A stretch of DNA of 64,000 nucleotides from the NCBI RefSeq assembly GCF_030268045.1, contig NZ_BSDC01000001.1, positions 372,001-436,000 of the forward strand, read 5' to 3'. Positions 8,563 to 25,677 of this stretch are shown in pieces. A program made the position numbers and the translations under genes. Position 1 is the first letter of the stretch. Each line of letters begins with the position of its first letter. This stretch comes from Geothrix edaphica (GTDB lineage: Bacteria > Acidobacteriota > Holophagae > Holophagales > Holophagaceae). The notes under the pieces were generated by a model. The model ran no database searches, had not been told where the DNA came from, and was given only the letters and a program-made list of their open reading frames with translations.

Positions 8563-9138
8563 ATGTCAGCCCAATACACTTCCTTGCAGCCCCTGGACTT
8601 CGACCGCCTGCTGAAGCTTCGTCTTGTCGTGGCTAGGGTTGGGGAGCTCGGGTTAGCTGGCTGGTGGGGCACGAAGGATGTCCTCGGCAGTATGGGGGCC
8701 ATGGCCTATCGGCGCGGATTCCCCAGGTCGCATCACTGGGCCCAGGCCAAAGTCGTCTTCGAGGTGGCGCGGGCCCGTTGCCAGGAACGCTTCCCAGATC
8801 CCACGGCCATCACCCTCTGGAGCCTACCGGCCACCGTTGAGGAGCAGTTTGAGCATGCCTGGGGCCGCTGGATTGGGGAGAACGAGGCCTGGAAACCCTT
8901 CTTTGATCGGCTGAAGGAGTGGAAGTCTCCCTCACTGACGGAAGCCCTGAAGGCCTTCGATCTGTGGTCCCCAGGCATGGATGTGGCCACGGCCCAGGCG
9001 GCCCCTGCCACAGCCTCCCTTGCGCTGGGGACCTTTCCTAGCCTCGACCAAGCGTCGGTGGATGGTCTCGCAGTGGGCTTCTCCTTCGGCCAGCATGGGG
9101 AGCCGGTGGTCCCCTTCGTGCGCCTTCAGGAGGCCTGA
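8563..9138 (+). CDS. brxE: BREX protein BrxE
   Basis: The 191-aa protein carries the pattern I associate with BrxE: an N-terminal LRLVVARVGELGLAGWW segment, then MAYRRGFPR, then ITLWSLPATVEEQFEHAW. BrxE is known mainly as the first gene of type 6 BREX loci and its biochemical role is unsettled. Here too it is the first gene, and its stop overlaps the brxA start by one base (TGATG), implying translational coupling. It marks this locus as a hybrid, because the last gene of the cluster is brxL, typical of type 1. Confidence 0.75.
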   Translation: MSAQYTSLQPLDFDRLLKLRLVVARVGELGLAGWWGTKDVLGSMGAMAYRRGFPRSHHWAQAKVVFEVARARCQERFPDPTAITLWSLPATVEEQFEHAWGRWIGENEAWKPFFDRLKEWKSPSLTEALKAFDLWSPGMDVATAQAAPATASLALGTFPSLDQASVDGLAVGFSFGQHGEPVVPFVRLQEA

Positions 9139-9914
9139 TGGCGGCACCTGAGGCAACGGTCAGTTCGTACGGTGTGATCAAGGGCCCCATGGTCGAGGAG
9201 ACCTACGCCTGCTTTCGGGCCTGGGACTGGAAGCTGAATCAGAACGAGAACCTGAAGCGCCTCAAGGAGCAAAACTTCGTGGGGGCCGCCAGCGTGAACT
9301 GGCTGCGCGATGTTTACAAAGTGCTGCACAGCCGCTTCGACCCCAATGGCAAGGACAAGCCGCTGACGCTCCTGGCCCAGAAGGATCCGGGTCTCGAATC
9401 CTGGAAGCACCTGCTCCTCTGGCACTGGGCCCAGGACGAGTATCTGCTCCGCATGTTCCTGCTCGATTGGCTTGGCCCCCGACTCCGGGAAGGCTTCGTG
9501 CGCTTCAAGCCCGAAGACCTCCTACCGGCCCTGAAAAAGCTCTGGGACAAGGGCGGCCCGGTGGCCGAGCCCTGGTCCGAGGCGACCACCAAGCGCGTGG
9601 CAACGGGCCTGCTGAAGGCCGCTGCCATTTTCGGCCTCATGGAAGGTGGCACGGTAAAGACCCTGGCGACCTACCACCTCCCGGAGCCTTGCTTTATTTA
9701 TGCCCTTCGATTCCTGCTGGATCGCGAGGGTAGCCCGCGCAAGGCAGTCGAGGCCCCGGATTGGGGGATCTTCTTGATGGACTCGCAGGCCGTGAAGCAA
9801 GAGCTCCTGCGCCTCCATCAGTACCGGAAGCTGGAATACCACGCGGCAGGAAGCTTGGTGGAGCTCACGCTTCCCCACGCCAATCTGCTCGACCTTGTGA
9901 ATGGGTGGTCCTGA
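9138..9914 (+). CDS. brxA: BREX protein BrxA (DUF1819)
   Basis: The 258-aa protein has the DUF1819/BrxA layout. It has an N-terminal helical region with ETYACFRAWDW, a KHLLLWHWAQDEYLLRMFLLDWL core, and a C-terminal winged-helix-like part ending HANLLDLVNGW. BrxA proteins are small DNA-binding proteins of the BREX complex needed for phage exclusion in some systems. The gene overlaps brxE by one base and brxB by a TGATG junction, so expression of the three is coupled. Confidence 0.85.
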   Translation: MAAPEATVSSYGVIKGPMVEETYACFRAWDWKLNQNENLKRLKEQNFVGAASVNWLRDVYKVLHSRFDPNGKDKPLTLLAQKDPGLESWKHLLLWHWAQDEYLLRMFLLDWLGPRLREGFVRFKPEDLLPALKKLWDKGGPVAEPWSEATTKRVATGLLKAAAIFGLMEGGTVKTLATYHLPEPCFIYALRFLLDREGSPRKAVEAPDWGIFLMDSQAVKQELLRLHQYRKLEYHAAGSLVELTLPHANLLDLVNGWS

Positions 9915-10489
9915 TGAAGCCCTGGACGGAACGACTCCTCGATCTGGAGGCCCTGTTGGCGAAGCCGGACCCACGGCCCGACATCAGCGCCTACCATGAC
10001 ATGCCGTACGCCATTTTCCATTACCCCCCATCCGAGGAATTGGCCTTTCGACGCGAGATGAACCTGCTGGCCACTCGCCTGCGGAACCAGGCGGCCAAGC
10101 GCGTGTCCGTGCTCTCGTTGGCGGAGCTTCTGGACAAGGCTGTGGGTTCAGTCATGAGTTGGCCCGAGCTCATCTCCGACGAGCGCACCATCGGCCTACC
10201 CGAAGTGCAGGACACCCTCCACCAGATCCTCTCTGAAGAAGCGCCTTTGCCCGATCTGGTGGCCTCCGAGATGCCCCAGGATCCCGACCCCGAACGGGAT
10301 GTGGTCTTCCTCTGGCGGACAGGCTCGCTGTTCCCGTTCTACCGGACCTTTGCCTTGCTGGAACAACTCAAGGGCAAGGTCGTGGCCCCCACCATCCTCT
10401 GCTACCCAGGTTCGCTGGATGGCCCGGCTGGATTGCGCTTCATGGGCCAGCTTGAAGCTGAACACAACTACCGACCCAAGATTTTCTAG
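9914..10489 (+). CDS. brxB: BREX protein BrxB (DUF1788)
   Basis: The 191-aa protein is in the expected brxA-brxB-brxC order. The start at 9914 overlaps the brxA stop. Family features include the early HDMPYAIFHYPPSEE segment, the VVFLWRTGSLFPFYRT strand and the conserved end QLKGKVVAPTILCYPGSL followed by RFMGQ and NYRPKIF. BrxB is a DUF1788 protein required for BREX, with function unresolved. Twelve bases separate it from brxC. Confidence 0.88.
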   Translation: MKPWTERLLDLEALLAKPDPRPDISAYHDMPYAIFHYPPSEELAFRREMNLLATRLRNQAAKRVSVLSLAELLDKAVGSVMSWPELISDERTIGLPEVQDTLHQILSEEAPLPDLVASEMPQDPDPERDVVFLWRTGSLFPFYRTFALLEQLKGKVVAPTILCYPGSLDGPAGLRFMGQLEAEHNYRPKIF

Positions 10490-10501: not shown

Positions 10502-13500
10502 ATGACCGAACTCATCCGAACCCTCTTCGCCCAGGACATCGACCGGCGCATCGAGGAAGTGATCAAGGTGGACCAGGACGACGAGAGCCTTGTCCGCCAG
10601 GAAATCCGCGAATACGTCGCCACGGACGCCATCCAGAGCTCCTTCATCAAGCTCCTGGATCGCTACATGGAGACGCCCAACAAGCCCCACGAGGGCATTG
10701 GCATCTGGGTCTCAGGTTTCTTTGGGTCCGGCAAATCCAGCTTCGCCAAGTACCTCGGCGTGGGCGTGGAGAACCGCCCACTGGAGGGCCAAGGGGCCGC
10801 AGATCTTCTTGCGGAACGGTTCAAGGACAAAAAGGCCTCCCTGCTGCTTCACGGCATCAACGAGCGCATCCCCACCCATGTGGTGATCTTTGATGTCTCC
10901 ACCGAGAGGGACATCAAGGCCGGGCAGCCCCTGACGGAAATCACCTACAAGGCTCTCCTCAAGAGTCTCGGATATGCCAAGAACCTGGATCTTGCCGAGC
11001 TTGAAATCGCGGAGGAGGAAGGGGGCCGCCTGGAGGCCTTCAAGGCGACCTATCACGAGCTCTACGGCGAGGATTGGGACAAGTCCAAGCACCTCGTCAG
11101 CCGTGCCATGGGCCGTGCATCGGCGGTGATGAGCAAGCTGGAACCCCAGACTTATCCTGAGGCCGACTCATGGGCGAAAGGGGCCCGCTCCCAAGCGGAG
11201 TTGAATCCTGGCCTCCTGGCCACCCGCTGCAAGACCCTCCTGGATCGCCGGGCCCCTGGCAAAGCGCTGATGTTCGTCGTGGACGAAGTGGGCCAGTTCG
11301 TATCCAAGGATGTCCAGAAGATGCTGGATCTCCAGGCCATCGTGCAGCAGCTTGGTAAGACGGGCCGTGGCCGTTTCTGGCTCGTCGTCACGTCCCAGGA
11401 AAAGCTGACGGAACTCGTGAGTGGCCTGGATGACCGCACCGTGGAACTGGCTCGCGTCATGGATCGCTTTCCTCTGGAGCTCCAAGTCCATCTGGAGCCC
11501 AGTGACATCAGCGAAGTCACCAGCAAGCGAGTGTTGGAGAAGAACTCTGCCGCAGAGGCCAAGCTCCGCAAGCTCTTTGATGAATGCCGTGCGCGGCTGA
11601 CGGCCAGCACCAAGGTCGAAGCCTCCATCAAGCTGCCAGAGCTCTCCGCCCAGGCCTTCGCAGACCTCTACCCGGTGCTTCCCTACCAGGTGGATCTGAT
11701 CATCCAGATCGTTTCGGGCCTCCGCACGCAGGGAGGTGCCTCCAAGCACGTGGGCGGCGCGAACCGCACGATCATCAAGCTCGCCCAGCAGCTTCTGGTG
11801 AACCCCGGTGTGGCCCTGGCGGACAAGCCCCTCGGACAGTTGGTCACGCTCGACAAGGTGTACGACCTCGTGAGCGGCAACATCGAGAGCGAGATCCGGG
11901 GCAAGATCCAGGAAACCGGCCAGCATGTGGGGCACCCTCTGGCCCCCGACGTGGCCAAGGCCATCTGCCTCCTCCAGTTCGTGCCCACGGTGCCCCGTAC
12001 GCCGGAGAACCTCGCGGCGGTGCTCCACCCCTACATCGACGCCGACTCCCGCCTGCCGCAGGTCAAGGAGGCCCTCGGGGAACTGGAAAGGGCCCTTCTA
12101 GTGCGCCAGGACGGCAAGGGCCAGTACCGCATCCCAAGTCCTGTCGAGGACGACTGGGAGCGCCGCCGCAACGCCCTTGAGCTCAGGACGCCCGACCGCA
12201 ACAAGCTGCTGCGGGACATGCTCACATCCTTCTGGGAGCCTCAGCCCTCCCAGAACCTCCAGGGCGTGAAGCAGTTCAAGGCGGGCCTGCTCTTCAACAG
12301 CACCGAGCTCGTGGATGGGGACATCCCGGTGAACCTGCACCTCCTGGAGGAAGGGGCCGGATACGCAGAACGGCTTGAAGACCTACGCCGCCGAAGCCAG
12401 ACCGAGCCCCTCACCCTCTTCTGGGCCTGTGCCACGAATCCCGATCTGGAGGAGGAGCTCCGGGAGTTGTTCCGTTCCCAGGAGATCCTCAACATCAAGC
12501 GCAGGGAAGCCCAGACGCCGGAACAGAGCCACCTCCATAGCGAAGAGACGCGGCGCATGGGCAACCACAAGGACGAGCTCCGCCGTCGGCTCAAGGAGGC
12601 CGTCCTGGGTGGCACCGTCTACTTCCGGGGCAACGACCGCAGCCCGGCAGGGGCCAGTTCCGTCGACGCTGCCGTGAAGGCCCTTCTAGGACAGGCTCTG
12701 CCGGAGGTCTACCACCGCTTCGACGAGGCTGCGGCCCGTGTCGATGCGAAGGATCTTCAGGCCCTCATGGGGGCCGACAGCCTCAAGGGGCTGACCCCGA
12801 TCTTCAACAAGCTCGGTCTGCTCAAGGAGGAGGGCGGTAAAGCCCGCTTCGACGCGGAGCGCCCGCCACTATCGGATGCGCTGGCCCGTATTAAGGCTGC
12901 GGCGGACTATGGCAACACCATCACCGGCAAGATGCTGGAGGAGCAGTTCCGCAAGGAGCCCTTCGGCTGGGATTTCGACATGGTGAAGCTCCTGGTCCTC
13001 TGCCTCCTCCGGGCGGGCTTGATCGAGGTCCAGAGCGCGGGCCGCAGCTTCGACGATGCCCGGAGCATGGAGGCCAAGACCGCCTTCACCAACAACACCG
13101 CCTTCCGACAGGCCTCCTTCCGCCCCAAGGAGACTGTGGATTTCGCCGTGGTATTGCAGGCCGCCGAGGCCTTCAAGGCCACCTTCGGGAAGGAAGCCAA
13201 GGAACTGGAACAGGGCAAGGTCGCCCAGGACATCCGCGCCGAACTGGAGCGCCAGGAGCAGGAGCTCCAGGCCATGCACACGCTGCTGATCCGCCACAAC
13301 CTCCCCGGCGAGGAAACCATCCAGCAGGCCCTCGATCTGGCCCGGGATGTTCGGGGAGGCAAGGAAGAGCACACCATCCAGGCCTTCCGCAGCAACCACA
13401 CCACCCTGAAGGACGCCATCCAGCAGGCTTCGGAACTGAAGCGGAACCTGGACGAGCCAAAGCTCTTCTCACTCCAGAAGGCCCGCGAGGTGCTTCGCGG

Positions 13501-14041
13501 CCCCTGGGCCTTCCTGAGCACCGAACCGGAGCTTCCGGAAGACCTCAAAGATGCTGGGGCTCGGCTGAAGGACCTCATTGAGAAGGAGAGCTTCCACCGG
13601 GAAGTGGCCGAGATCGAGCGCCTCGGCATGAAGCTCCAGGACGCCTTCCGAAAGCTTCAGGAAGACGCCTTGGCAGCGCGGGCCGAAGCCTACGAGGCGG
13701 CCCTGCATCACCTTCAGGGCATGACCGGGTGGGCCGACCTGGATGAAGACCAGCGGGCCACCATCGCCAAGCCCCTCACAGATCTGGCAAGCGCCTACTG
13801 CGATCAGGCCCCACCCGTTCCCCAGCTTCGCGCCGACAAGGATGCGGCCCCCCTGCGGCTCCAGAAGGCTCAGGAGGAGATGATGCGCCTGCTGGAAGGC
13901 GAACGACTGGTGAGCCTTAAGCTGGCGCAGTTTTTCAATGGCGGTATCGAGAACGCGGACCAACTGGAAGCGGCCCTCGACGAGATCCGCAACGCCTGTG
14001 CGCCACTGCTGGCATCCGGCAAGAAGGTGGTGTTGCAGTGA
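10502..14041 (+). CDS. brxC: BREX ATPase BrxC
   Basis: The 1179-aa P-loop protein has the usual length for BrxC. Walker A is GFFGSGKS at residues ~72-79. A Walker B-like strand LMFVVDEVG lies at ~255-263, and a long helical C-terminal part follows. The N-terminal TELIRTLFAQDIDRRIEEVIK is typical of BrxC/PglY ATPases. BrxC is an essential BREX component and likely couples ATP hydrolysis to assembly of the methylation/exclusion complex. Its TGA overlaps the ATG of the following nuclease gene by one base, so that extra gene is translationally tied to the core. Confidence 0.93.
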   Translation: MTELIRTLFAQDIDRRIEEVIKVDQDDESLVRQEIREYVATDAIQSSFIKLLDRYMETPNKPHEGIGIWVSGFFGSGKSSFAKYLGVGVENRPLEGQGAADLLAERFKDKKASLLLHGINERIPTHVVIFDVSTERDIKAGQPLTEITYKALLKSLGYAKNLDLAELEIAEEEGGRLEAFKATYHELYGEDWDKSKHLVSRAMGRASAVMSKLEPQTYPEADSWAKGARSQAELNPGLLATRCKTLLDRRAPGKALMFVVDEVGQFVSKDVQKMLDLQAIVQQLGKTGRGRFWLVVTSQEKLTELVSGLDDRTVELARVMDRFPLELQVHLEPSDISEVTSKRVLEKNSAAEAKLRKLFDECRARLTASTKVEASIKLPELSAQAFADLYPVLPYQVDLIIQIVSGLRTQGGASKHVGGANRTIIKLAQQLLVNPGVALADKPLGQLVTLDKVYDLVSGNIESEIRGKIQETGQHVGHPLAPDVAKAICLLQFVPTVPRTPENLAAVLHPYIDADSRLPQVKEALGELERALLVRQDGKGQYRIPSPVEDDWERRRNALELRTPDRNKLLRDMLTSFWEPQPSQNLQGVKQFKAGLLFNSTELVDGDIPVNLHLLEEGAGYAERLEDLRRRSQTEPLTLFWACATNPDLEEELRELFRSQEILNIKRREAQTPEQSHLHSEETRRMGNHKDELRRRLKEAVLGGTVYFRGNDRSPAGASSVDAAVKALLGQALPEVYHRFDEAAARVDAKDLQALMGADSLKGLTPIFNKLGLLKEEGGKARFDAERPPLSDALARIKAAADYGNTITGKMLEEQFRKEPFGWDFDMVKLLVLCLLRAGLIEVQSAGRSFDDARSMEAKTAFTNNTAFRQASFRPKETVDFAVVLQAAEAFKATFGKEAKELEQGKVAQDIRAELERQEQELQAMHTLLIRHNLPGEETIQQALDLARDVRGGKEEHTIQAFRSNHTTLKDAIQQASELKRNLDEPKLFSLQKAREVLRGPWAFLSTEPELPEDLKDAGARLKDLIEKESFHREVAEIERLGMKLQDAFRKLQEDALAARAEAYEAALHHLQGMTGWADLDEDQRATIAKPLTDLASAYCDQAPPVPQLRADKDAAPLRLQKAQEEMMRLLEGERLVSLKLAQFFNGGIENADQLEAALDEIRNACAPLLASGKKVVLQ

Positions 14042-14655
14042 TGACCTGGGCCGAGCGCTTCCAAACCTTTTTCAGCCGTCCGGAGTTCCTAAAGGAGCTT
14101 GCGACTATCTGTTCCGCCGAAGGCTGCCGGGAAACCTGGCTGCACGGCAATGCCTTCATTCATTTCAATACCCGAGGGAAGCAACTCGCCCAGGAATCCT
14201 TTCGAGTGAACTCCCATCCTCTTTCCGCCCAGCATCGAGGAGGGAAAATCGATTTTGCTGCATATGAGGGAGATCAACTCCGGATGATTGCAGAGTGCAA
14301 ATTTCTGGGCGTCAGCGACTATTACGCCAAGGGACTCGCAGGTTGTGGAATCAATCGCCTGAAGCAGCTTCAACGAGATCCCAAAAGGCGCGGACTGACC
14401 TTCACCAAGGACGATTTCTCCGCCTTCGAAATGGGGGCATGGAGCCTCCTTCGCGACTACCAGAGGCTCTCGACAAGTTGGCCTGCCAAGCGTGATGTGG
14501 AGCGCTACCTCATTCTGGTTCTGGATAAGAGCAATACTCCCGATTCCTTCGGAGCGCTGCTGGATCAGGCGGAGTTCGGTGGCCCCCATACGCCACTGAT
14601 CTCCTCTGACATTCCGAACCTCGCCGTCAAGCTCTGGCGCGTGGAGACGGAGTAG
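14041..14655 (+). CDS. PD-(D/E)XK-like nuclease inserted between brxC and pglX
   Basis: The 204-aa protein contains a restriction-endonuclease-like signature: GGKIDF (Asp ~71) followed 16-18 residues later by IAECKF (Glu ~84, Lys ~86), with hydrophobic strands around both. This is the D-ExK arrangement of PD-(D/E)XK nucleases. The rest is mixed alpha/beta, ending in a strand-rich region with LILVLDKS. Start 14041 overlaps the brxC stop, and pglX begins 5 bp after its end. Such a gene is not part of the standard six-gene BREX set. A role in cleaving unmodified or modified phage DNA is an inference. Confidence 0.65.
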   Translation: MTWAERFQTFFSRPEFLKELATICSAEGCRETWLHGNAFIHFNTRGKQLAQESFRVNSHPLSAQHRGGKIDFAAYEGDQLRMIAECKFLGVSDYYAKGLAGCGINRLKQLQRDPKRRGLTFTKDDFSAFEMGAWSLLRDYQRLSTSWPAKRDVERYLILVLDKSNTPDSFGALLDQAEFGGPHTPLISSDIPNLAVKLWRVETE

Positions 14656-14660
14656 CCGGT

Positions 14661-16517
14661 ATGGACGCTCAACTCGTCAACCTCATCGCCTCCACCACCC
14701 AATCCGCCCGGCGTCTTCTGGAGCGGGAATTCGCCGAACAGTTGGAAGGCAGCTTCGACCTGAGGCCCGCCGGCCCCCTGCCAGAGAAGGCGGGCAGCCA
14801 CTTGGACGCTCGTCAGGCCCTGCTGCGGGACAAGCTGTATGCCCTCGTTCGCCACAAGATGGCGGCGGGCAAGTCCCAGGCTCAGGCGGTCCAGGAGGTT
14901 TGCCATGCAGCGGCCTTCACGACCCTGAACCGCTTTGCGGCCCTCAAGATGCTGGAAGCACGTGGGCTCATCCAGGAGTGCGTTTCAAAGGGTGACCAGT
15001 CCTCCGGCTTCAAGGAGTTTTGCGGGCTGGCCCAGAGCCTCGCCGTGCAGGAGGGGGCCTACGCCCTCTACCTGGGCTGCCTCTTCGACGAGCTCGCGGT
15101 GGAAGTGAAGGTGCTCTTCGACCGGCAGGAGCTCTCCGGCCTGCTCTGGCTCCGGCGGCCCGCCCTGCTGGCCCTACTCGAACTCCTCAATGCTCCGACC
15201 TTGGCCCTCGCCTGGGTCGAGGACGAAACCATCGGCTGGACCTACCAGTACTTCAACAGTCTGGATGAGCGCCGCGAGATGCGGGCCGCCAGTGCGGCCC
15301 CCCGCAACAGCCGGGAACTGGCGGTGCGCAACCAGTTCTTCACGCCCCGCTACGTAGTGAAGTTTCTGGTGGACTACACCCTGGGCGAGCTCTTCCAGAA
15401 GGAGCCCAAGGACCCTCGCGATCTCAAGGTGCTGGACCCCGCCTGCGGCAGCGGCCATTTCCTGCTCTACACCTTCGAGGTGCTCCTGGGAATCTACCGG
15501 GCAGCCTGGGAGATGGAAGACCTCCCGCCGTCCACCGTTTTGGGGAAAACCCTGCGCGAGGACTTTGGCACCTGGGAGGCCCTGGAGAAGGCCATACCCG
15601 CCCTTATCTTGAAGCACAACCTGCACGGCGTGGACATCGACGGGCGCTGCGCCCAGATCGCGGCCCTCTCCCTCTGGATGCGGGCCCAGAAGACCTTCCA
15701 GGCCCAAGGCATCGCCGCCGGAGACCGACCCCTGATCACCAAGGTCAACATCGTCGTGGCTGAGCCCATGCCCGCTGAGAAGGACGAACTCCAGGCCTTT
15801 CTGGACCAGCACCTCTCTAGTGATGTGGAAGCTCGCATGCTGGGCCAGCTTCTGAAAGAGGTCTTTGAGGCCATGAAGCTGGCTGGGGAACTGGGCAGCT
15901 TGCTGAAGGTGGAGAAGGCCATCGCCGCCACCCTGGAGGCTGCGGAAAAGCAGTGGCGACGAGGCATCCAAGGTGTCGCCCCACGGAGCCTCTTTGGGAG
16001 CGATACGGCGATTTCCCAACGTCAAAGGCTGGAGTTCGAAGTCTCGGGTATTGACCGTAGCTTCTGGCAGGAAGCTGAGGCACGGCTCTACAAGGCCCTC
16101 CAGGCCTTCGCCGAAGAAGCGACCCGCATGCAGGGCTACCAGAGGCAACTCTTTGCCGAGGATGCGGCTCACGGTTTCGCGCTCATCGACCTTCTTCGCC
16201 AGAATTACGACGTGGTGCTGATGAACCCGCCATTTGGAGAATGCTCCTTACCTTCAAGGACTCTATTCCAAAAGGATTACCCTAGAACCAAGTCCAACTT
16301 ATACGCTGCATTTGTGGAGCGAGGCGTTGATCTATTGCGACCAACAGGGCGTTTGGGTGCGATTACGAGTCGAACAGGATTCTTTTTGTCGACATATTCG
16401 CGTTGGAGAACCGAGATAATGTTAAAGGAATCGACGCCTATTTACGTAGTTGATTTGGGCTTAGGCGTTTTAGATGCAATGGTTGAAACTGCTGCATATA
16501 TTATCGAGAAACAGTGA
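14661..16517 (+). CDS. pglX: BREX adenine-specific DNA methyltransferase PglX, N-terminal part (split gene)
   Basis: The 618-aa product contains the N6-adenine methyltransferase core of PglX. The SAM-binding motif LDPACGSGHF is at residues ~257-266 and the catalytic motif NPPF at ~521-524. The frame then ends right after the methyltransferase core at ETAAYIIEKQ. PglX is normally one ~1200-residue protein; the rest is in the next frame. DNA from about 16240 onward is AT-rich while everything before is GC-rich, so the last ~90 residues have a different origin. The TGA at 16515-16517 overlaps ATG 16517-16519, so a two-chain PglX by reinitiation is possible. A single-base frameshift, biological or from assembly, is the alternative. 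Confidence 0.88.
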   Translation: MDAQLVNLIASTTQSARRLLEREFAEQLEGSFDLRPAGPLPEKAGSHLDARQALLRDKLYALVRHKMAAGKSQAQAVQEVCHAAAFTTLNRFAALKMLEARGLIQECVSKGDQSSGFKEFCGLAQSLAVQEGAYALYLGCLFDELAVEVKVLFDRQELSGLLWLRRPALLALLELLNAPTLALAWVEDETIGWTYQYFNSLDERREMRAASAAPRNSRELAVRNQFFTPRYVVKFLVDYTLGELFQKEPKDPRDLKVLDPACGSGHFLLYTFEVLLGIYRAAWEMEDLPPSTVLGKTLREDFGTWEALEKAIPALILKHNLHGVDIDGRCAQIAALSLWMRAQKTFQAQGIAAGDRPLITKVNIVVAEPMPAEKDELQAFLDQHLSSDVEARMLGQLLKEVFEAMKLAGELGSLLKVEKAIAATLEAAEKQWRRGIQGVAPRSLFGSDTAISQRQRLEFEVSGIDRSFWQEAEARLYKALQAFAEEATRMQGYQRQLFAEDAAHGFALIDLLRQNYDVVLMNPPFGECSLPSRTLFQKDYPRTKSNLYAAFVERGVDLLRPTGRLGAITSRTGFFLSTYSRWRTEIMLKESTPIYVVDLGLGVLDAMVETAAYIIEKQ

Positions 16518-17960
16518 TGCCTAAAACAATATTCATTCGACTCCTCGCTGAACAGGACAAGGAAAAGGCTCTTGATACAGCAATTCATTCAATTCGAACA
16601 AATAAACCAAATAGTAATATTTATGAAGTTGAGTCAGATACCTTTAATTATATCCCTGGTAGTCCCATGGGGTATTGGGTTAGTGATGCAGTGCGTTTCA
16701 CTTTTAAGAAATTTTCAGCCTTCGAGTCTGAGACCAGAACTGCATGCCAAGGTATGGCTACAGCAGATGATATAAGATTTGTAAGAAATTGGTGGGAAAA
16801 TCCAAAGTTTGAAATTAATAAAGAATGGTTTTTCTTTGCAAAGGGCGGTGCTTATAACCAATACATTGGTCAGCCAAATTTGGTTGTGAATTGGGCACAC
16901 GATGGCAATGAATTAAAATCTTGGGCTGGATCACTTTATAACAACTCTCATTGGTCGAGAATTATTAAAAACGTTAGCTGCTATTTCAGGCCTGGTATTA
17001 CTTGGTCCCTCCGAAGCCAAAAAGGTCTCTCGTTCAGGGCTTTACCCAAAAATTGCACATTTAGCGTCCAAGGCCCTTGTGGGTTTTTACAAAATAATGA
17101 ACCCAATGATTTATTAATCACCTTGGGTATTATGAATAGCTCGTGCTTTTTAGGACTAGTAATGCTTCAATCTGCATTCGGAAAATTTGAAGTCGGGATG
17201 ATTCAAAGATCGCCGATGCCAATTGTGAACAGCAAGGAGAGAAGCACTATATTAACTCAAGTAAATAAAATTGTAGCAAATAAACAATATTTAGAATCAT
17301 TTGATGAAACGAATACTAACTACACTAGTCCGATTAGTTGGACTACCAATTTTCAATCATTGCTGAATCTTTTCTCGGAGCACGCCCAAAAAGTTCTATT
17401 ACTAGAAGAAGAGAATAAAATTGCGCAAGAGCAGATTAATTTAGCGTGCTGGGATATTTTTGGTATTACGGAATCTGATCGCCAAGCGCTTTTATCTCCA
17501 ACACCCGCTGTGCAGCAAGCGGAGAATGAGGAGCCCGAAGAAGACGATAGTGCTGAAGAAATTTTTGTTGAATCCATCTCGAATTCAGCCCTCGCTGGAA
17601 ATTTCTGTTCATGGTTATTTGGGGCTGCAATCGGAAGGTGGGACATTGGCATTGCTACAGGTAGGACCATACTAAGTCCAATTCCGGGACCCTTCGAGAG
17701 CTTGCCAGTGGTTAGCCGAGGCATGCTAGGAAGTGCAGAAGGTATTCATCCCTCCCTAGACGTTCATGGACGGTTTTTACCTGAGCATGATCTACTTCTA
17801 GATGATAATGATGAAAAATTGGATCTAGTAAGACAAGTTCGCGGTGTGTTGGAAAGCGTAGCCGGGAATCATGCTGATTCCTGGTTCATAGAGCTTGAGA
17901 GTTTGCTCAATTCAGACTTGCGCACCTGGTTCCGTCGCTCTTTTTTTGAACATCACCTAA
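16240..17960. other. AT-rich recombinant patch inside pglX (target-recognition region)
   Basis: From about 16240 to 17960 the base composition changes abruptly from the island's usual high GC to clearly AT-rich, with A/T-ending codons (for example around 16570-17560). It returns abruptly to high GC near TACCAAGAGCCGACGCAAGG. Both borders fall inside coding sequence: after the NPPF motif on the left, and before the C-terminal part on the right. The patch spans the region expected to hold the target-recognition domain, as if this module had been replaced from an AT-rich donor. Confidence 0.75.
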
Positions 17961-18859
17961 AACGCTATACCAAGAGCCGACGCAAGGCCCCCATCTACTG
18001 GCAGCTTGGCACGCCCTCGGGTAGCTACTCTGTGTGGCTCTACTACCCGCGCCTCACCCGCGACAGCCTGTTCCGCCTTCTGAACGACGTGGTAAAGCCC
18101 AAGGTTGCCTACGAGGAACAGCGACTCGCAGGGATGCGGGAGCAGAACGCCCGGCGCACCGAACTGGAGCCCCAGGAGGCCCTGGTGGAAGAGCTCCAGG
18201 CCTTCCGGGACGAGGTGGCCCGCGTGACGCCCCTCTTCGACCCCAATCTGGATGATGGCGTCCTGATCAACGCCGCCCCGCTCCACCGCCTGTTCGTGCA
18301 TGCCGGATGGCGGCGGGACACTCAGGCCGCCTGGGCCCAACTGGTGCGCGGCGACTTCGAATGGTCCAACATGGCCCTCCACCTCTGGCCCGAACGTGTG
18401 ATCCCCCTATGCGCCGAGCAGCGCCATCTGGCCCTAGCCCATGACCTGGAGGGGCCCTTGAAGACCCGCAGCGTGGATGATCTGGTCGCGGCCCACACCC
18501 GGCCCGCCGTGAAGGAATCCCTTCAGACCCTGCTCAACGCCTCGCCCCAGGCCGGAGGCCGCTCGGCAGGCCGACTCGCACGGGCCCCACGCGCCCCCCG
18601 TCCGGCTCCGGAACCCCTCACCGCTGCGGAACCCACGCCTCGGGCCCCCCGTGCCGGCGCCGAGGTGCCCGAAGCCACCCTGGCCGCCATCCGCGAAGTC
18701 CTGGCCCGCTTCCCCGGTGGGGCCGCAAAGTCCGATGTCCTCTCCGCCACGGGCATCCCGGACGGCACCTGGAACGCCGCCATCTCCCAGCTACTGGCTA
18801 CCGGCGATGTGGAAAGCCAGGGCGAGAAACGCGGAACTCGCTATTTCCTGAAAGCCTGA
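16517..18859 (+). CDS. pglX: PglX C-terminal part (target recognition and C-terminal domain)
   Basis: The 780-aa product continues PglX after the split. It begins MPKTIFIRLLAEQDKEKAL, which is the segment that follows AAYIIEK in intact PglX. A recognition-like region follows (GKFEVGMIQRSPMPI). The LACWDIFGI segment and an acidic linker (PEEDDSAEE) come next, then the conserved RKAPIYWQLGTPSGSYSVWLYY. The final ~100 residues add a Pro/Ala/Arg-rich linker and a small winged-helix-like domain (VLARFPGGAAKSDVLSATGI). The first half is AT-rich, the second GC-rich. Start ATG 16517 overlaps the upstream stop (TGATG). Whether the two chains form an active enzyme cannot be told from sequence. Confidence 0.82.
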   Translation: MPKTIFIRLLAEQDKEKALDTAIHSIRTNKPNSNIYEVESDTFNYIPGSPMGYWVSDAVRFTFKKFSAFESETRTACQGMATADDIRFVRNWWENPKFEINKEWFFFAKGGAYNQYIGQPNLVVNWAHDGNELKSWAGSLYNNSHWSRIIKNVSCYFRPGITWSLRSQKGLSFRALPKNCTFSVQGPCGFLQNNEPNDLLITLGIMNSSCFLGLVMLQSAFGKFEVGMIQRSPMPIVNSKERSTILTQVNKIVANKQYLESFDETNTNYTSPISWTTNFQSLLNLFSEHAQKVLLLEEENKIAQEQINLACWDIFGITESDRQALLSPTPAVQQAENEEPEEDDSAEEIFVESISNSALAGNFCSWLFGAAIGRWDIGIATGRTILSPIPGPFESLPVVSRGMLGSAEGIHPSLDVHGRFLPEHDLLLDDNDEKLDLVRQVRGVLESVAGNHADSWFIELESLLNSDLRTWFRRSFFEHHLKRYTKSRRKAPIYWQLGTPSGSYSVWLYYPRLTRDSLFRLLNDVVKPKVAYEEQRLAGMREQNARRTELEPQEALVEELQAFRDEVARVTPLFDPNLDDGVLINAAPLHRLFVHAGWRRDTQAAWAQLVRGDFEWSNMALHLWPERVIPLCAEQRHLALAHDLEGPLKTRSVDDLVAAHTRPAVKESLQTLLNASPQAGGRSAGRLARAPRAPRPAPEPLTAAEPTPRAPRAGAEVPEATLAAIREVLARFPGGAAKSDVLSATGIPDGTWNAAISQLLATGDVESQGEKRGTRYFLKA

Positions 18860-18870
18860 GGAGTACCCGG

Positions 18871-19884
18871 ATGATCTTCACGGTGCCCAACAAGAACCTT
18901 GTCACTGCCCAGAAGGTGTCTCCAGGAACCTTCCTCGACCTGAAAATCTGGGAACGCCAGCACATCGAGCAGTGGGTAATCAACAATCCTGAGATTCTTG
19001 GCGAAGAGCTCCTGATCCTTACTGCCGAATTCAGCGGGTTCGAACAGAGCAAGGATCGATTGGATGTCCTGGCCCTCGACCGGCAAGGGAACGTGGTTGT
19101 CATTGAGTTGAAGCGGGACGGTCTGGCCGCCTATGCCGATCTTCAGGCCCTGCGCTACGCCGCCATGGTGGCTTCTCTCACCATTGAGAAAGTCATTCCT
19201 TACTACATCAAGTTCAGAAAGCGTGTGGCTGATGAGGTGCTTACCGAAGAACAAGCCAAGGCAGAGATCCAGGACTTCGTTATCTCCGACACCTTTGAGG
19301 AGTTCTCGACCAAAGCACGGATCATTCTGTGTTCCGAGGATTTCTCGAAGGAGATCACCAGCACCGTGCTCTGGCTCCGGGACTTCGGCGTGGATCTGAG
19401 TTGCATCAAGATCACGCCCTACGCGATGGAGGATAAAGTTGTCATCGTCCCTCGGGTGCTTATTCCGCTAGAGGAAGCTAAGCAGTATCTGATCGGGATT
19501 CAGGCGAAGGAAAACCCACAGCCGTCCAAGGGAGCCAAGCGCCAACGAACGGTGAAGATCCTTCTCGAAAACGCATTGGTGAAGGCTGGGGACAAGGTGT
19601 TCCTGAAAAACGGACTCCCCTCATTCCTCCAATTCAAGAAGGATGACCCCATCTTTTCTGCGGAAATCACTGGGCTCAAGGGGCAGAGCGACGCCATTCG
19701 CTGGGCCAATGACGGACAGTGCTACTCGTTGTCCAATCTGGCCTGGAGCATTTTTAAGGAGCATCACCCGGAGGGCAAGGATCCCGGTGGTGTGAATGGC
19801 GCTTGGCATTGGGTGAATGAACAAGGCGTTTCTCTCTGGGATTTGGCAGAGAAACACTTGGCTGCGGCCTCCACCAAAGCCTGA
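18871..19884 (+). CDS. NucS/DUF91-like PD-(D/E)XK nuclease inserted between pglX and pglZ
   Basis: The 337-aa protein has an N-terminal nuclease core with KDRLDVLALDRQGNVVVIELKRD. Asp ~65, Glu ~79 and Lys ~81 form the D-ExK signature, typical of NucS/EndoMS and DUF91-type enzymes. The preceding helix (ERQHIEQWVINNPEILGEE) is also family-like. The C-terminal third (after GAKRQRTVKILLENALVKAG) is a separate small domain resembling DNA-binding or modification-sensing add-ons. GAGGA precedes the start and the gap to pglX is 11 bp, so it belongs to the BREX transcript. Specific substrates are unknown. Confidence 0.72.
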   Translation: MIFTVPNKNLVTAQKVSPGTFLDLKIWERQHIEQWVINNPEILGEELLILTAEFSGFEQSKDRLDVLALDRQGNVVVIELKRDGLAAYADLQALRYAAMVASLTIEKVIPYYIKFRKRVADEVLTEEQAKAEIQDFVISDTFEEFSTKARIILCSEDFSKEITSTVLWLRDFGVDLSCIKITPYAMEDKVVIVPRVLIPLEEAKQYLIGIQAKENPQPSKGAKRQRTVKILLENALVKAGDKVFLKNGLPSFLQFKKDDPIFSAEITGLKGQSDAIRWANDGQCYSLSNLAWSIFKEHHPEGKDPGGVNGAWHWVNEQGVSLWDLAEKHLAAASTKA

Positions 19885-19902: not shown

Positions 19903-22437
19903 ATGCATCCACTCCACGACCGTATCTCCGCTCTCCTCCATGCCCACCTAGCGTCCAAGCGCATCGTGGTGTGGTACGACCCACGCAAAGAGTTCGAGCC
20001 CTACTTCACTGAACTCCTCGACAGCAAGACCACTGGAGAAGGTCTGGTGCCAGTGAAGTTCAAGAAGCTCAAGGTGCAGGTAGGAGTCTTTCGGGGCTCC
20101 TACTTCGCGCTCCGCCAGCAGGCCGAGCCCCATTACGCCAAGGAGGAGCCGGATCACCTGCTCCTGTACCTCCCCGGCGAAACCTGGGCGCAAAAAAGCT
20201 CTCCCCTTATGGAGCTCGATCTCGCGGGCCACCGATACACGGATCTGTCGCTTCGCCGCGAAGCTCGGCATTGCCTCAAGGATGTGGGCTACTCGGATGG
20301 CGTGATCGACGATCTACTTCGGCCCGAGTCCCTCGGCTACGCAGATCTGGTGCGGGTCCTTGCCGGAGGAGGCGAAGGCCAGGGCAGTGGCCTGCTGAGG
20401 ACTGTCTTCAAGGAAACGGACTCCGAATCCCTGATCGCCGCGTGGCTGGCGGATCCCAACACGGACGAGAAATTGGGCCAGAAGGATGCAGGTGCGGAAC
20501 TGCTCAAGCTGGTGGCCAGCCGGGTGGGGGCCACGCTTCCGGTTGAACTGCCTAAGACTCGGCGCATTCTGTTCCGCTATCTGCTGGTCAACGAGTTCCG
20601 GTCTGATCTCCAGGGCTCGACGGTCGAAATACCTGGATCCGTTCCTGCCGCTGGAACGAAAGAACTGGAGCGGGTTCGCAAGATCGCAGGCCTCCTGAGA
20701 AGCCACCATACTGAGGCCTACCGGGCCGCTGCGGACGAGGTGGAACAGGAACTGGGGCTGCCGACCCTCGGCATACATCCGGATCACCTGGGCAGCCTGG
20801 ACACCTTCCGCTTCGAAGAGCGGGCCCTCTTTGGCCGCTGCGCGGAACACATCGCAGAGCGTCGATTCCAGCAGGCCCTGGATCTGGCCTCGGCCCGGCA
20901 GACCAGCTTCTGGCTCACCCCCGAGCGGCGCAGCCAGTGGGAGCTCTGCGCCCGCATGGCCACCCTGGGGCTCGCCATGGAGGCCGCTAAGGGCCAACTG
21001 CAGGGCCTGAAGGACAAACCGGAGGCCTGGTTCGGTTGGTACACCGAAGGCGAGGAGGCGGGCCACCTTGTGGATCGCCGCTTCCGAGAATTGGAGACGG
21101 CAGTTTCCACCCTGGAGGAGGACCCCGAAGCGGAACCGGCCTACAGCCTCATTCGGCAGTCCTACGACCGCTTCCTGGAGGGTTGCACGGAAGGCTTCAC
21201 GGCGGCCCTCGCCAAGCGGGGATGGCAGGTGCCGGGCGCGTTGCACCAGACCCGCGTCTTCGAGGACGTGGTGCGGCCCCTTCCCGCCAAGAAGGCCCTG
21301 ATCCTGGTGGACGCCCTTCGCTACGAAATGGCCGTGACCCTGAAGGCCCGCCTGGAAGACCGCGTCGACGAGCTCAAGCTGCGGCCCGTGGTGGCAGCCA
21401 TGCCGACCATTACGCCCGTGGGCATGGCCGCCCTGATGCCAGGGGCCGCGACCAGCTTCGAAGTCGCTGAAGAAGGTGGGAAGCTGGGATCCAAGGTCAG
21501 CGGCACCTTCCTCCCGGATCTGGCGGCCCGCAAAAAGTGGCTGAAGGAATCGGTCCCAGCTAGCACGGACCTCGATCTCCAGAGCGTTCTCACCCTGGCC
21601 CCGGCGAAGCTCAAGGCCCAGATCGACGGCGCAGACCTCGTGGTGGTCCGCTCCCAAGAGATCGATGCCTCAGGTGAAGGCGGCCTTGGCAGCGTGGCCC
21701 GCCGCGTCATGGATGGCCTGCTCACCACGGATCTGGTGAAGGCCATGCGCCGTCTGAGTCAAGCGGGCATCACCCACTTCGTGCTTTGCGCCGACCACGG
21801 CCACCACTTCGCTCGGGCCAAGGAAGACGCCATGAAGCTCGACCTCCCAGCGGGCCAGCGGATCGAGGATCACCGCCGCTGCGTCATTGGTCGTGGGCTT
21901 CAGGTGGCCAATGGATGCGTCAAGGCCACGGCCCAGGAGCTTGGTTACACCTCCGATCTGGAGTTCCTGTTTCCGGACGGGGCCGGTGTCTTCAAGTGCG
22001 GTGGCGATCTGGCCTTCCACCACGGCGGCCCCAGCCTCCAGGAGCTTGTGGTGCCCCTGCTGACTTGGCGCGCCAGGGGAGCAGACGATCAGGCCACCGA
22101 AGCCGTTCAGGTTCGTCTGGAGGGCCTGCCGGAGACGGTCACGAACCCCATCTTCACGGTGAGCATTGAGTGCTCTCAGGGCCTCTTCGCCCAGCCGTTG
22201 AAGGTCTATCCCGTGCTGATGGCTCAGGACCGCGTGGTCGGTGAAGTCGTAACCGCATTCGACTGCGAGCGGGACGACGCTACCCAGCAGGTGACGCTGG
22301 AGCCGGGCCGCAAGGCAACGTTGGTGTTCCACCTAAAGGACGAATCCCCGGCAAGCATCCAGGTCAAAATTCTGGATCCCCGCACGGATTCTGAACTCCT
22401 CAAGCCCAAGACCCTGCCTGTTTCCCTGACGAGATGA
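19903..22437 (+). CDS. pglZ: BREX phosphatase-like protein PglZ
   Basis: The 844-aa protein has a C-terminal alkaline-phosphatase-superfamily domain. The strand ALILVDALRYEMA (~464-476) carries the metal-binding Asp, and FVLCADHGHHF (~626) carries the DHG histidine cluster. The N-terminal third starts RIVVWYDPRKEFEPYF, typical of BREX PglZ. PglZ is a core protein of all BREX systems. Its ATGA end overlaps brxL, so the two are translationally coupled. Length is normal. Confidence 0.93.
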   Translation: MHPLHDRISALLHAHLASKRIVVWYDPRKEFEPYFTELLDSKTTGEGLVPVKFKKLKVQVGVFRGSYFALRQQAEPHYAKEEPDHLLLYLPGETWAQKSSPLMELDLAGHRYTDLSLRREARHCLKDVGYSDGVIDDLLRPESLGYADLVRVLAGGGEGQGSGLLRTVFKETDSESLIAAWLADPNTDEKLGQKDAGAELLKLVASRVGATLPVELPKTRRILFRYLLVNEFRSDLQGSTVEIPGSVPAAGTKELERVRKIAGLLRSHHTEAYRAAADEVEQELGLPTLGIHPDHLGSLDTFRFEERALFGRCAEHIAERRFQQALDLASARQTSFWLTPERRSQWELCARMATLGLAMEAAKGQLQGLKDKPEAWFGWYTEGEEAGHLVDRRFRELETAVSTLEEDPEAEPAYSLIRQSYDRFLEGCTEGFTAALAKRGWQVPGALHQTRVFEDVVRPLPAKKALILVDALRYEMAVTLKARLEDRVDELKLRPVVAAMPTITPVGMAALMPGAATSFEVAEEGGKLGSKVSGTFLPDLAARKKWLKESVPASTDLDLQSVLTLAPAKLKAQIDGADLVVVRSQEIDASGEGGLGSVARRVMDGLLTTDLVKAMRRLSQAGITHFVLCADHGHHFARAKEDAMKLDLPAGQRIEDHRRCVIGRGLQVANGCVKATAQELGYTSDLEFLFPDGAGVFKCGGDLAFHHGGPSLQELVVPLLTWRARGADDQATEAVQVRLEGLPETVTNPIFTVSIECSQGLFAQPLKVYPVLMAQDRVVGEVVTAFDCERDDATQQVTLEPGRKATLVFHLKDESPASIQVKILDPRTDSELLKPKTLPVSLTR

Positions 22438-24470
22438 CCATGAACGCCAGCCCCCAGCGCGATCCCCTAGACGACAAGGTAAACCGCCACTTCGCCGGGA
22501 AGGTAGTCCGAAAGGATCTCGTCCGGAAGGTGAAGGTGGGGGCAAATGTGCCGGTGTTTGTTCTCGAATACCTGCTTGGGAAGTACTGCGCCTCGGCAGA
22601 CGAGATGGCCATCCAGGTCGGTCTCCAGGTGGTGAATGACACCCTTGCGAAGAACTACATCCGCCCGGATGAAGGCCCCAAGGCCCAGAGCAGAGTCAAG
22701 GAAGCCGGAAAGTACAGCTTCATCGACAAGGTGAAGGTCCGCCTCGTGGACTCGGAGTATTGGGCCGAGGCCAACAACTTCGGACACAAGAACCTCCATG
22801 TGCCTACCCACTACGTCGTGGACTACGAGCGCCTGCTCACGGGCGGGATCTGGGCCCAGATGGACATGCGCTTCGAATACGACGAGGAGTCCAAGGGCAA
22901 ATACCCCTTCTGGATCGATCGCCTGAACCCCATCCAGATCGCGAGCTTCGACCTGGAGGAATACCGGAAGCTGCGCCAGGAGTTCACCACGGACGAGTGG
23001 ATCGACTTCATCCTCCGGAGCCTTGGCTACGAGCCGACGGCCATGGACCGCCGCCTGAAGCTGCTCTTCCTCATCCGCCTGATTCCTTTGACGGAGCGGA
23101 ACTACAACATGGTGGAGCTCGGCCCCCGTGGCACGGGCAAGAGCTACGTAATCCAGGAAGTCAGTCCCTACGCATCACTGCTGACCGGCCCCACTACCGT
23201 GGCAAACCTCTTCGGCCACATGAACGGGAAACAGAAGGGCATGGTGCAGATCTGGGACGTGGTGGGCTTTGACGAGGTGGCCGACCTCCAGAAAATGCCC
23301 AAGGAAGTCATCACCACGATGAAGACGTATTGTGAGTCCGGAAGCTACCAGCGGGGCCAAGAGGCGACCTCGGGTGATGGTTCCATCGCCATGTTCGGGA
23401 ATACCCAGCAACCCATTGATGTGATGGTCCAGTCGGGCCACCTCTTCGAGCCAATGCCCGACGTGATCCGGGATGACATGGCCTTCATCGACCGTCTGCA
23501 CTTCTATCTCCCTGGCTGGGAGATCCCGAAGATGCACAACGACCTCTTCACCGACCACTACGGCTTCGTGGTGGACTACCTGGCAGAGGCCCTACGAGAG
23601 CTCCGGAAGCACAACTTCACGGAGGTTATCGACCACCACTTCGCGCTCGGGGCCCACCTCAACGCACGTGACCGCAAGGCCGTCCGCAAGACCGTTTCCG
23701 GCCTGATGAAGATCCTCCACCCCCATGGCCAGTGCAGCCAGGAGGAGATGGGCGAACTGCTGGAACTCGCGCTGGAAGGGCGTCGGCGCGTGAAAGAGCA
23801 GCTAAAGAAGATGGGGAGCTTCGAGTACTACCACACGAGCTTCAGCTACACCGTGCAGGAGAGCGGCGAAGAGCGCTTTGTGGGCGTTCCCGAACAAGGG
23901 GGCCGCGACCTCATCAGCCAGGATCCACTGTCTCCCGGAACGGTCTACGCTGCCGGAGTTTCTGCCGAAGGCACCGTGGGCCTCTACCGGGTGGAGGTCA
24001 CCCTTTCCTCCGGCACCTCAAAGCTAAAGCTGGCGGGTGGCATCAGTGGCAGCACCAAGGAGGCCCTCCAGCGGGCCTTCGGGTATCTCCTGGCCCACAA
24101 AACCGATCTGAGCGTGGCCAAGGACGTCGATACCTCTGACTTCCACGTGGAGGTGGTCGACCTCCTGAACAACCGCCTCGAAGTAGAACCCGGCGTGGCC
24201 TTCTTTGTGGCCTTCATGTCGGCCCTCCGGAAGGCCCCTGTCTCCCCGGCCATGCTGATCCTGGGTGACCTCAGTATCCAGGGCAACCTGAAGCCCCTCC
24301 GCAGCCTCGTAGAGCCCCTCCAAGTCGGCATGGACAACGGAGCACGCCGGGCCCTCGTCCCCATTGAGAACAAGCGCAACTTCTTGGAAGTCACCGGAGA
24401 CGTTGTGGAGAAGGTGGATCCGGTGTTCTTCGGGGATCCGAAGATGGCGGCAGCGAAGGCGATTGGGTGA
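22434..24470 (+). CDS. brxL: BREX AAA+ protein BrxL (Lon-like)
   Basis: The 678-aa protein has the type 1 BREX BrxL architecture: an N-terminal DNA-binding-like domain, an AAA+ core with Walker A GPRGTGKS (~residues 230-237), and a Lon-protease-like C-terminus. In the C-terminal domain the segment that holds the catalytic Ser in Lon reads VEPGVAFFVAFMSAL, and no equivalent Ser or Lys is seen. This agrees with the published view of BrxL as a DNA-binding AAA+ restriction factor rather than a protease. It ends the BREX operon, 28 bp before the RES-domain gene. Confidence 0.92.
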   Translation: MTMNASPQRDPLDDKVNRHFAGKVVRKDLVRKVKVGANVPVFVLEYLLGKYCASADEMAIQVGLQVVNDTLAKNYIRPDEGPKAQSRVKEAGKYSFIDKVKVRLVDSEYWAEANNFGHKNLHVPTHYVVDYERLLTGGIWAQMDMRFEYDEESKGKYPFWIDRLNPIQIASFDLEEYRKLRQEFTTDEWIDFILRSLGYEPTAMDRRLKLLFLIRLIPLTERNYNMVELGPRGTGKSYVIQEVSPYASLLTGPTTVANLFGHMNGKQKGMVQIWDVVGFDEVADLQKMPKEVITTMKTYCESGSYQRGQEATSGDGSIAMFGNTQQPIDVMVQSGHLFEPMPDVIRDDMAFIDRLHFYLPGWEIPKMHNDLFTDHYGFVVDYLAEALRELRKHNFTEVIDHHFALGAHLNARDRKAVRKTVSGLMKILHPHGQCSQEEMGELLELALEGRRRVKEQLKKMGSFEYYHTSFSYTVQESGEERFVGVPEQGGRDLISQDPLSPGTVYAAGVSAEGTVGLYRVEVTLSSGTSKLKLAGGISGSTKEALQRAFGYLLAHKTDLSVAKDVDTSDFHVEVVDLLNNRLEVEPGVAFFVAFMSALRKAPVSPAMLILGDLSIQGNLKPLRSLVEPLQVGMDNGARRALVPIENKRNFLEVTGDVVEKVDPVFFGDPKMAAAKAIG

Positions 24471-24498: not shown

Positions 24499-25677
24499 AT
24501 GGGGACAGCTAAAGCGTGGCAAATGGAGCAGGAAGATAGAGGATATTATGGAATAGGGACGAACTTTTGTAAAAACTGCGTCGATGACGCTAACGTAATA
24601 AAATTTATCAAAAATAGCGGTCTAATACATACGACTGATCAATGTTCATACTGCAATATTACAAAAAAAGTTTGGTCTACCGATGATTTGATGGATACGC
24701 TTGCTTCAAAAATCTTTGAAGAATGGGGTGACCTTCATGACGGTAGGGTTCCTTATGATGATGAAACCGGCGACCCAATCGGGAATGAACATTCTTTTAG
24801 CACTGAAGAATTACTTGAGCATGAAGGCTTTTTGGTAAGCTCAACACAGCTTCAAGAAGATATACAAAATGCATTTATTGCAACCGAATGGTGCGAAAAC
24901 GATCCATTTGGAGACAATGAGGAGCTTACACTCAAGATCAGCTGGAATGAGTTTTCGAATATCGTAAAACATAAAATGCGATATACATTTTTCCGAAATA
25001 CAAATCAAGCCGATTCATATGTCTATACACCCCTTGAATTGCTTAACAATATGAAACGCATTTTTATGTTCAAGGGAATGCTCCAAACCATAAGTGCTGG
25101 GGCTACTATTTTTAGAGCAAGGCCTGGATTTGGACATAATGGCGGGAAAGCACTAGGGACTCCTCCTATTGGATACGGTGGTGCCAACAGAATGAGTCCA
25201 GAAGGAATTGGAATGTTTTATGGCGCTTTTGACGAAGAGACATGCTTCAAGGAATTGTTTGATTATAAAAAACCAAAAAAGAACCACTGTTCAATTGGAC
25301 AATTTATTACAACATGTGATTTAAAGGTCTTGGATTTAACAAAATACCACAACAGTAGTGTTTTAAATGAAAACAACAAAGAAAAGCGAGAAATACTGAG
25401 ATTTTTGAATCATTTTCAAAAAGAAATTTCAAAACCTCTTTCATCAAAAAATTCGCAAATCGATTACATACCAACTCAAGTTTTAACTGAATTTATTAGA
25501 TATAATCTGATTTCCAAAAAAGGCCACGGCATAGACGGAATAAAATATAGAAGTTCGAAAAATTATGGCCATAACTGTGTAGTATTATTTGTAATGCATG
25601 AAGAGTGTGGAAATAAATCAGATGTAAATACAAAATTGAATTTAGTTTCCGCATCAAACAGAAGAGTTGGGCCATAG
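24499..25677 (+). CDS. RES-domain protein (probable NAD+-degrading toxin) with Cys-rich N-terminus
   Basis: The 392-aa protein is encoded by strikingly AT-rich DNA, unlike its neighbours. Its C-terminal half has RES-domain hallmarks: an Arg in ATIFRARPG (~203-211), then GTPPIGYGGANRMSPEGIG, then MFYGAFDEETCFKEL. RES proteins are known NAD+ glycohydrolases or phosphorylases (for example MbcT, ParT). The N-terminus has two CxxC pairs (Cys24/27 and Cys49/52) suited to zinc, and an acidic linker. No Xre-type RES antitoxin is adjacent. Placed 28 bp behind brxL, it may act as an abortive backup to BREX. That role is inference. Confidence 0.72.
   Translation: MGTAKAWQMEQEDRGYYGIGTNFCKNCVDDANVIKFIKNSGLIHTTDQCSYCNITKKVWSTDDLMDTLASKIFEEWGDLHDGRVPYDDETGDPIGNEHSFSTEELLEHEGFLVSSTQLQEDIQNAFIATEWCENDPFGDNEELTLKISWNEFSNIVKHKMRYTFFRNTNQADSYVYTPLELLNNMKRIFMFKGMLQTISAGATIFRARPGFGHNGGKALGTPPIGYGGANRMSPEGIGMFYGAFDEETCFKELFDYKKPKKNHCSIGQFITTCDLKVLDLTKYHNSSVLNENNKEKREILRFLNHFQKEISKPLSSKNSQIDYIPTQVLTEFIRYNLISKKGHGIDGIKYRSSKNYGHNCVVLFVMHEECGNKSDVNTKLNLVSASNRRVGP

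Follow-up and report, generated by a model that had tools for sequence, protein, structure and literature searches.

The window analysed here, a stretch of 64,000 nucleotides of Geothrix edaphica DNA, carries on its plus strand a BREX operon in which brxA, brxC, pglX, pglZ and brxL were all found. The operon begins with brxE (8563..9138, matching NF033447 at 1.5e-35), brxA (9138..9914) and brxB (9914..10489, with an approximate start), the last being assigned by similarity to the genes in the BrxB position of relatives, and continues with brxC (10502..14041). PglX is encoded in two pieces, an N-terminal methyltransferase piece (14661..16517) and a C-terminal piece with the target recognition part (16514..18859), split as in the Microvirga locus L049. 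These are followed by pglZ (19903..22437) and brxL (22434..24470).

The initial annotation had placed a nuclease ORF between pglX and pglZ, and this was confirmed. A gene for a 337-aa protein of the PDC-S11 family occupies positions 18871 to 19884 on the plus strand, 11 bp from the second pglX piece and 18 bp from pglZ, spacings that are compatible with co-transcription of the nuclease with the BREX genes. The other nuclease, described at a different junction of the operon, corresponds to the plus-strand ORF at 14038..14655, a second insert at the brxC/pglX junction encoding a putative PD-(D/E)XK protein of 205 amino acids with a plausible D...E-x-K motif. Relatives of this 205-aa insert were found neither in the 297 genomes of the window's phylum, nor in the plasmid collection, nor in the 80 related BREX loci surveyed. 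The GC content of the nuclease gene is 0.54 and that of the 205-aa insert 0.56, compared to 0.61-0.64 for most core genes.

Additional features were observed in and around the operon. Within the second pglX piece, the first half (16514-17600) has a GC content of 0.388, versus approximately 0.62 for the operon, and resembles a target-recognition domain acquired by exchange from a source of low GC content. A HEPN/RES gene (24499-25677, GC 0.36) adjoins brxL downstream and is likely further defence or toxin-antitoxin cargo. Upstream of the operon lies an ORF of 897 amino acids (5115-7808) that gave neither a Pfam nor a PADLOC match.

The nuclease domain

The N-terminal part of the 337-aa protein (residues ~1-215; 18871..19515, plus strand) was recognized as a PD-(D/E)XK nuclease domain through PADLOC, a fold match and a structure model. 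Residues 2-228 match the PADLOC family PDC-S11 at 7.7e-72 (240.8 bits), with the match ending at profile position 226 of 347 instead of running over the full length; because the C-terminus differs across the family, the PDC-S11 assignment is restricted here to the nuclease region. The domain contains the motif R-L-D65...V-I-E79-L-K81. In a structure model built with 27 family sequences, pLDDT values for the nuclease domain were mostly 70-95, and a model built without an alignment had a pLDDT of 41. The best fold match was the catalytic domain of NucS/EndoMS (Z 11.9, rmsd 2.0 Å, 107 residues, 24% identity), and alignment to the Pyrococcus NucS 2vld equated residues D65, E79, K81, Q92 and Y96 (19063..19158, plus strand) with NucS D160, E174, K176, Q187 and Y191, respectively. 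The description of the protein as a NucS/DUF91-like PD-(D/E)XK enzyme was thus borne out by its motif, its fold and its intact catalytic residues.

In a family alignment of 57 rows, some of them redundant, E79, K81, Q92 and Y96 were present in all rows (57/57) and D65 in every row covering its position, so that the inactivating changes sought in homologues were absent. Since the catalytic residues are invariant across this alignment, the enzyme is probably active.

Identity with NucS itself was considered and rejected. The nuclease fold and catalytic residues are those of NucS/EndoMS, but in the window protein the nuclease domain is N-terminal, beginning near residue 16-28 of the model, and the protein, lacking the DNA-binding domain with which NucS begins, is not regarded as a NucS. 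The family cut-offs were also not reached, with 15.7 bits for NucS_C PF01939 (cut-off 24) and, far below, 32.4 bits for the NucS NCBIfam model NF003270 (cut-off 216).

The C-terminal domain

An extra C-terminal domain that could read DNA or its modification had also been proposed. The protein indeed carries a domain at residues ~224-330 (19540..19860, plus strand) that is absent from NucS, is RAMA-like and is plausibly a modification reader. It is conserved in relatives from Hymenobacter, Spirosoma, Haloarcula and Haloquadratum, and two haloarchaeal McrB proteins, each adjoining McrC, end in the same domain (L143, 3258-5384; L144, 3384-5390).

The comparison with modified-base readers that had been suggested showed a collinear RAMA-like pattern, at a level below the cut-off of PF18755. 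The pattern LLE.G.L..GD / A.V / W...YS.S / NG..W / L..L, extending over 73 columns, resembles that of RAMA (PF18755; the CcrM C-terminus), whereas the loops of the window domain are longer. Searching the window protein with PF18755 gave no match at E<=10, and the relative L022 scored 14.5 bits against a cut-off of 35.2; a Spirosoma relative showed a weak direct match to RAMA (E 0.036), with one record at 5.5e-4. Profile-profile comparison with RAMA gave a score of 25.4 over the 73 columns (P 0.0005), compared to a maximum of 18.2 in 200 column shuffles and a best score of 23.1, over 12 columns, in 110 unrelated profile windows, whose high-scoring matches spanned only 12-14 columns. A PDB profile search with the C-terminal alignment returned chance matches only, and scans of viral contigs for the domain found none. 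In the 27-sequence model the domain lay below pLDDT 50 over much of its length, and because these values stayed low no fold was assigned to it. Judging from the sequence comparisons, we describe the domain as RAMA-like and not as a member of RAMA, as it resembles the template at a level below the Pfam cut-off. Whether even genuine RAMA domains prefer N6-methyladenine is a matter of dispute (PMC11037411).

Other members of the nuclease family bear unrelated C-termini, amongst them DUF4268, a domain that most often accompanies GmrSD type IV domains (PMC4619093). Given these unrelated C-termini, the simplest reading is that PDC-S11 proteins combine a constant NucS-like cutter with swappable, reader-like C-terminal modules. 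The window protein has the same nuclease domain as PDC-S11 over its N-terminal two thirds, and the C-terminus is variable in both; it differs in that its C-terminal domain, lying outside the PADLOC match, is RAMA-like and in that its gene is embedded in BREX. PDC-S11 is a candidate single-gene phage defence family, and no functional work on it was found in the literature.

Distribution of the nuclease and of cargo in BREX operons

Amongst the 297 genomes of the window's phylum, a relative of the nuclease was found in 18 and a PglZ of the window's type in 4, the two occurring together only in the window's own genome. A scan of genome contigs with the nuclease as a single sequence yielded no relative. 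Most family members stand alone on plasmids or viral contigs, and most have no methyltransferase partner; one lies between hsdS and hsdR inside a type I RM operon, and others are located beside type I RM genes or directly after IIG-like methyltransferases. On two Haloarcula plasmids (L023, 8372-18161; L142, 2363-11754), a IIG-like methyltransferase is followed by a nuclease of the same architecture and then by a convergent helicase (of PLD-SNF2 type in L023), an arrangement that is possibly a three-part restriction system.

The solitary distribution of the family, the lower GC content of the gene and a fold that is that of the mismatch nuclease NucS could all be expected of a passenger, either a mobile nuclease inserted at random into the operon, without a function in defence, or a NucS-like repair enzyme. 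We consider this very unlikely. Family members are found repeatedly beside restriction genes, the active site is invariant and the gene keeps an in-frame operon spacing, while the missing N-terminal domain and scores far under the NucS family cut-off argue against repair in particular.

Related BREX loci were collected with a PglZ-based scan, using one genome per species and restricted to loci matching two PglZ peptide patterns, which gave 80 loci. When these operons were searched with a nuclease-family HMM able to find distant members, a PDC-S11-type nuclease was detected in 0/80; the nuclease is therefore not conserved with the BREX core. The nearest operons, with PglZ proteins 37-43% identical to that of the window, are without either nuclease. 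In the Microvirga locus L049, pglX is split in the same way and the two junctions measure -3 bp and 13 bp, with no insert at either; in the Filomicrobium locus L055, PglX is fused and an insert is lacking; and loci bearing BrxE are without both nucleases, so that the suggested co-occurrence of the two nucleases with split PglX or BrxE was not observed.

These results bear on the view in the initial annotation that the operon represents a BREX variant whose two nucleases link modification to cleavage, a view that is not upheld, as neither nuclease recurs in the 80 related loci. For the PDC-S11 nuclease this view would mean an integral effector whose cutting is gated by the PglX methylation state through the BREX complex. 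The tight operon spacing, the intact active site, the plausible reader module and the relatives that directly follow a IIG-like methyltransferase on the Haloarcula plasmids would suit such an effector. It is nevertheless unlikely, considering the absence of the nuclease from the surveyed loci and from the nearest locus with a split pglX, the lack of a methyltransferase partner for most relatives and the cargo-like base composition of the gene.

Genes of other kinds were frequently present in the same position. The gap between pglX and pglZ exceeded 400 bp in 29 of the 58 surveyed loci in which both genes were visible, with part of the gap sequence being broken pglX, and its cargo included Schlafen-like, OLD/PARIS-like and GmrSD type IV genes. 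HEPN proteins are recurrent in the interval from brxC to pglX, and in other loci both junctions accommodate numerous unrelated defence genes. A family of ~280 amino acids was also seen repeatedly at the brxC/pglX junction (L067, 3483-4322; L079; L082; L087; L031), its member in L067 matching HEPN RiboL-PSP. In a previous survey, genes were located between pglX and pglZ in ~7,000 of ~9,000 genomes, including BrxU and PARIS, and in ~5,000 of these ~7,000 genomes no known defence system was found there (PMC11341690). The commonest BREX auxiliary effectors are described in the main text of PMC12839542 as PD-(D/E)XK nucleases.

The same text presents backup effectors as a BREX theme, and the window nuclease could be a backup or abortive effector triggered by phage inhibition of BREX or restriction, as in the case of PARIS with Ocr, its C-terminal module sensing a phage protein or a DNA state and not a base modification. 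PARIS-like OLD modules in the same slot of other loci and the family members within type I RM operons are in line with this role. However, the nuclease is not accompanied by a gene for an ATPase or a sensor partner, and its C-terminal domain is common to McrB, a DNA-reading system; we thus regard a backup role as rather unlikely.

Proposed role of the nuclease

With a family that is mostly solitary and mobile, and a slot known for extra defence genes, the nuclease most likely represents an accessory to the operon and not a component of a novel BREX type. The explanation that we favor, with moderate confidence, is an autonomous PDC-S11 endonuclease carried as BREX cargo, with the RAMA-like module probably making it modification-dependent and with a role analogous to that of BrxU. 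As cargo in the pglX-pglZ slot, the gene would be transcribed with the BREX operon, and the N-terminal NucS-like PD-(D/E)XK domain would perform metal-dependent DNA cutting. The C-terminal RAMA-like module would most likely bind modified bases in the phage DNA and thereby license cleavage in a type IV manner, and the nuclease would then cover phages whose modified DNA evades BREX, like BrxU.

The analysis shows the gene, its position, its fold, the catalytic conservation, the lack of conservation with BREX, the independence of the family and the swappable C-terminal module; cleavage, its dependence on modification, the modification read and co-transcription with BREX are inferred. Counting against it are the scores of up to 23.1 reached by unrelated profile windows, the missing PF18755 match and the low-confidence model of the C-terminal domain. 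Additionally, the methylation by the host PglX is presumably N6mA, and a nuclease reading 6mA would endanger the very cell that encodes it, unless it recognizes another context or another modification.

BrxU and other GmrSD type IV enzymes (PMC8565348, PMC11341690) are likewise extra nucleases that BREX loci carry in the pglX-pglZ gap, and BrxU does not depend on PglX in the case that was studied (PMC8565348, PMC11341690). GmrSD also has the DUF4268 module in common with some PDC-S11 relatives. The window nuclease differs from BrxU in its unrelated catalytic fold, a NucS-like PD-(D/E)XK fold, with no DUF262/DUF1524 and no NTPase. It resembles the auxiliary PD-(D/E)XK REases of BREX, which are standalone or fused and set in core loci, whereas the main text describing these names no NucS/DUF91-type or RAMA-fused version (PMC12839542). 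A bolder proposal, which we hold to be quite improbable, is that the fusion of NucS-like and RAMA-like domains is a new type of restriction enzyme that senses N6-adenine modification and takes account of the methylation set by PglX itself. It would cut phage DNA bearing foreign adenine marks, the PglX mark being tolerated or blocking, and a single code would then serve both BREX and a type IV enzyme within one operon.

Altogether, the analysis supplies an identity for part of the cargo between pglX and pglZ. For PDC-S11, which is common on Klebsiella plasmids and is a candidate family for defence, it suggests a constant cutter with interchangeable C-termini, an organization that leads to predictions on the restriction of modified DNA.
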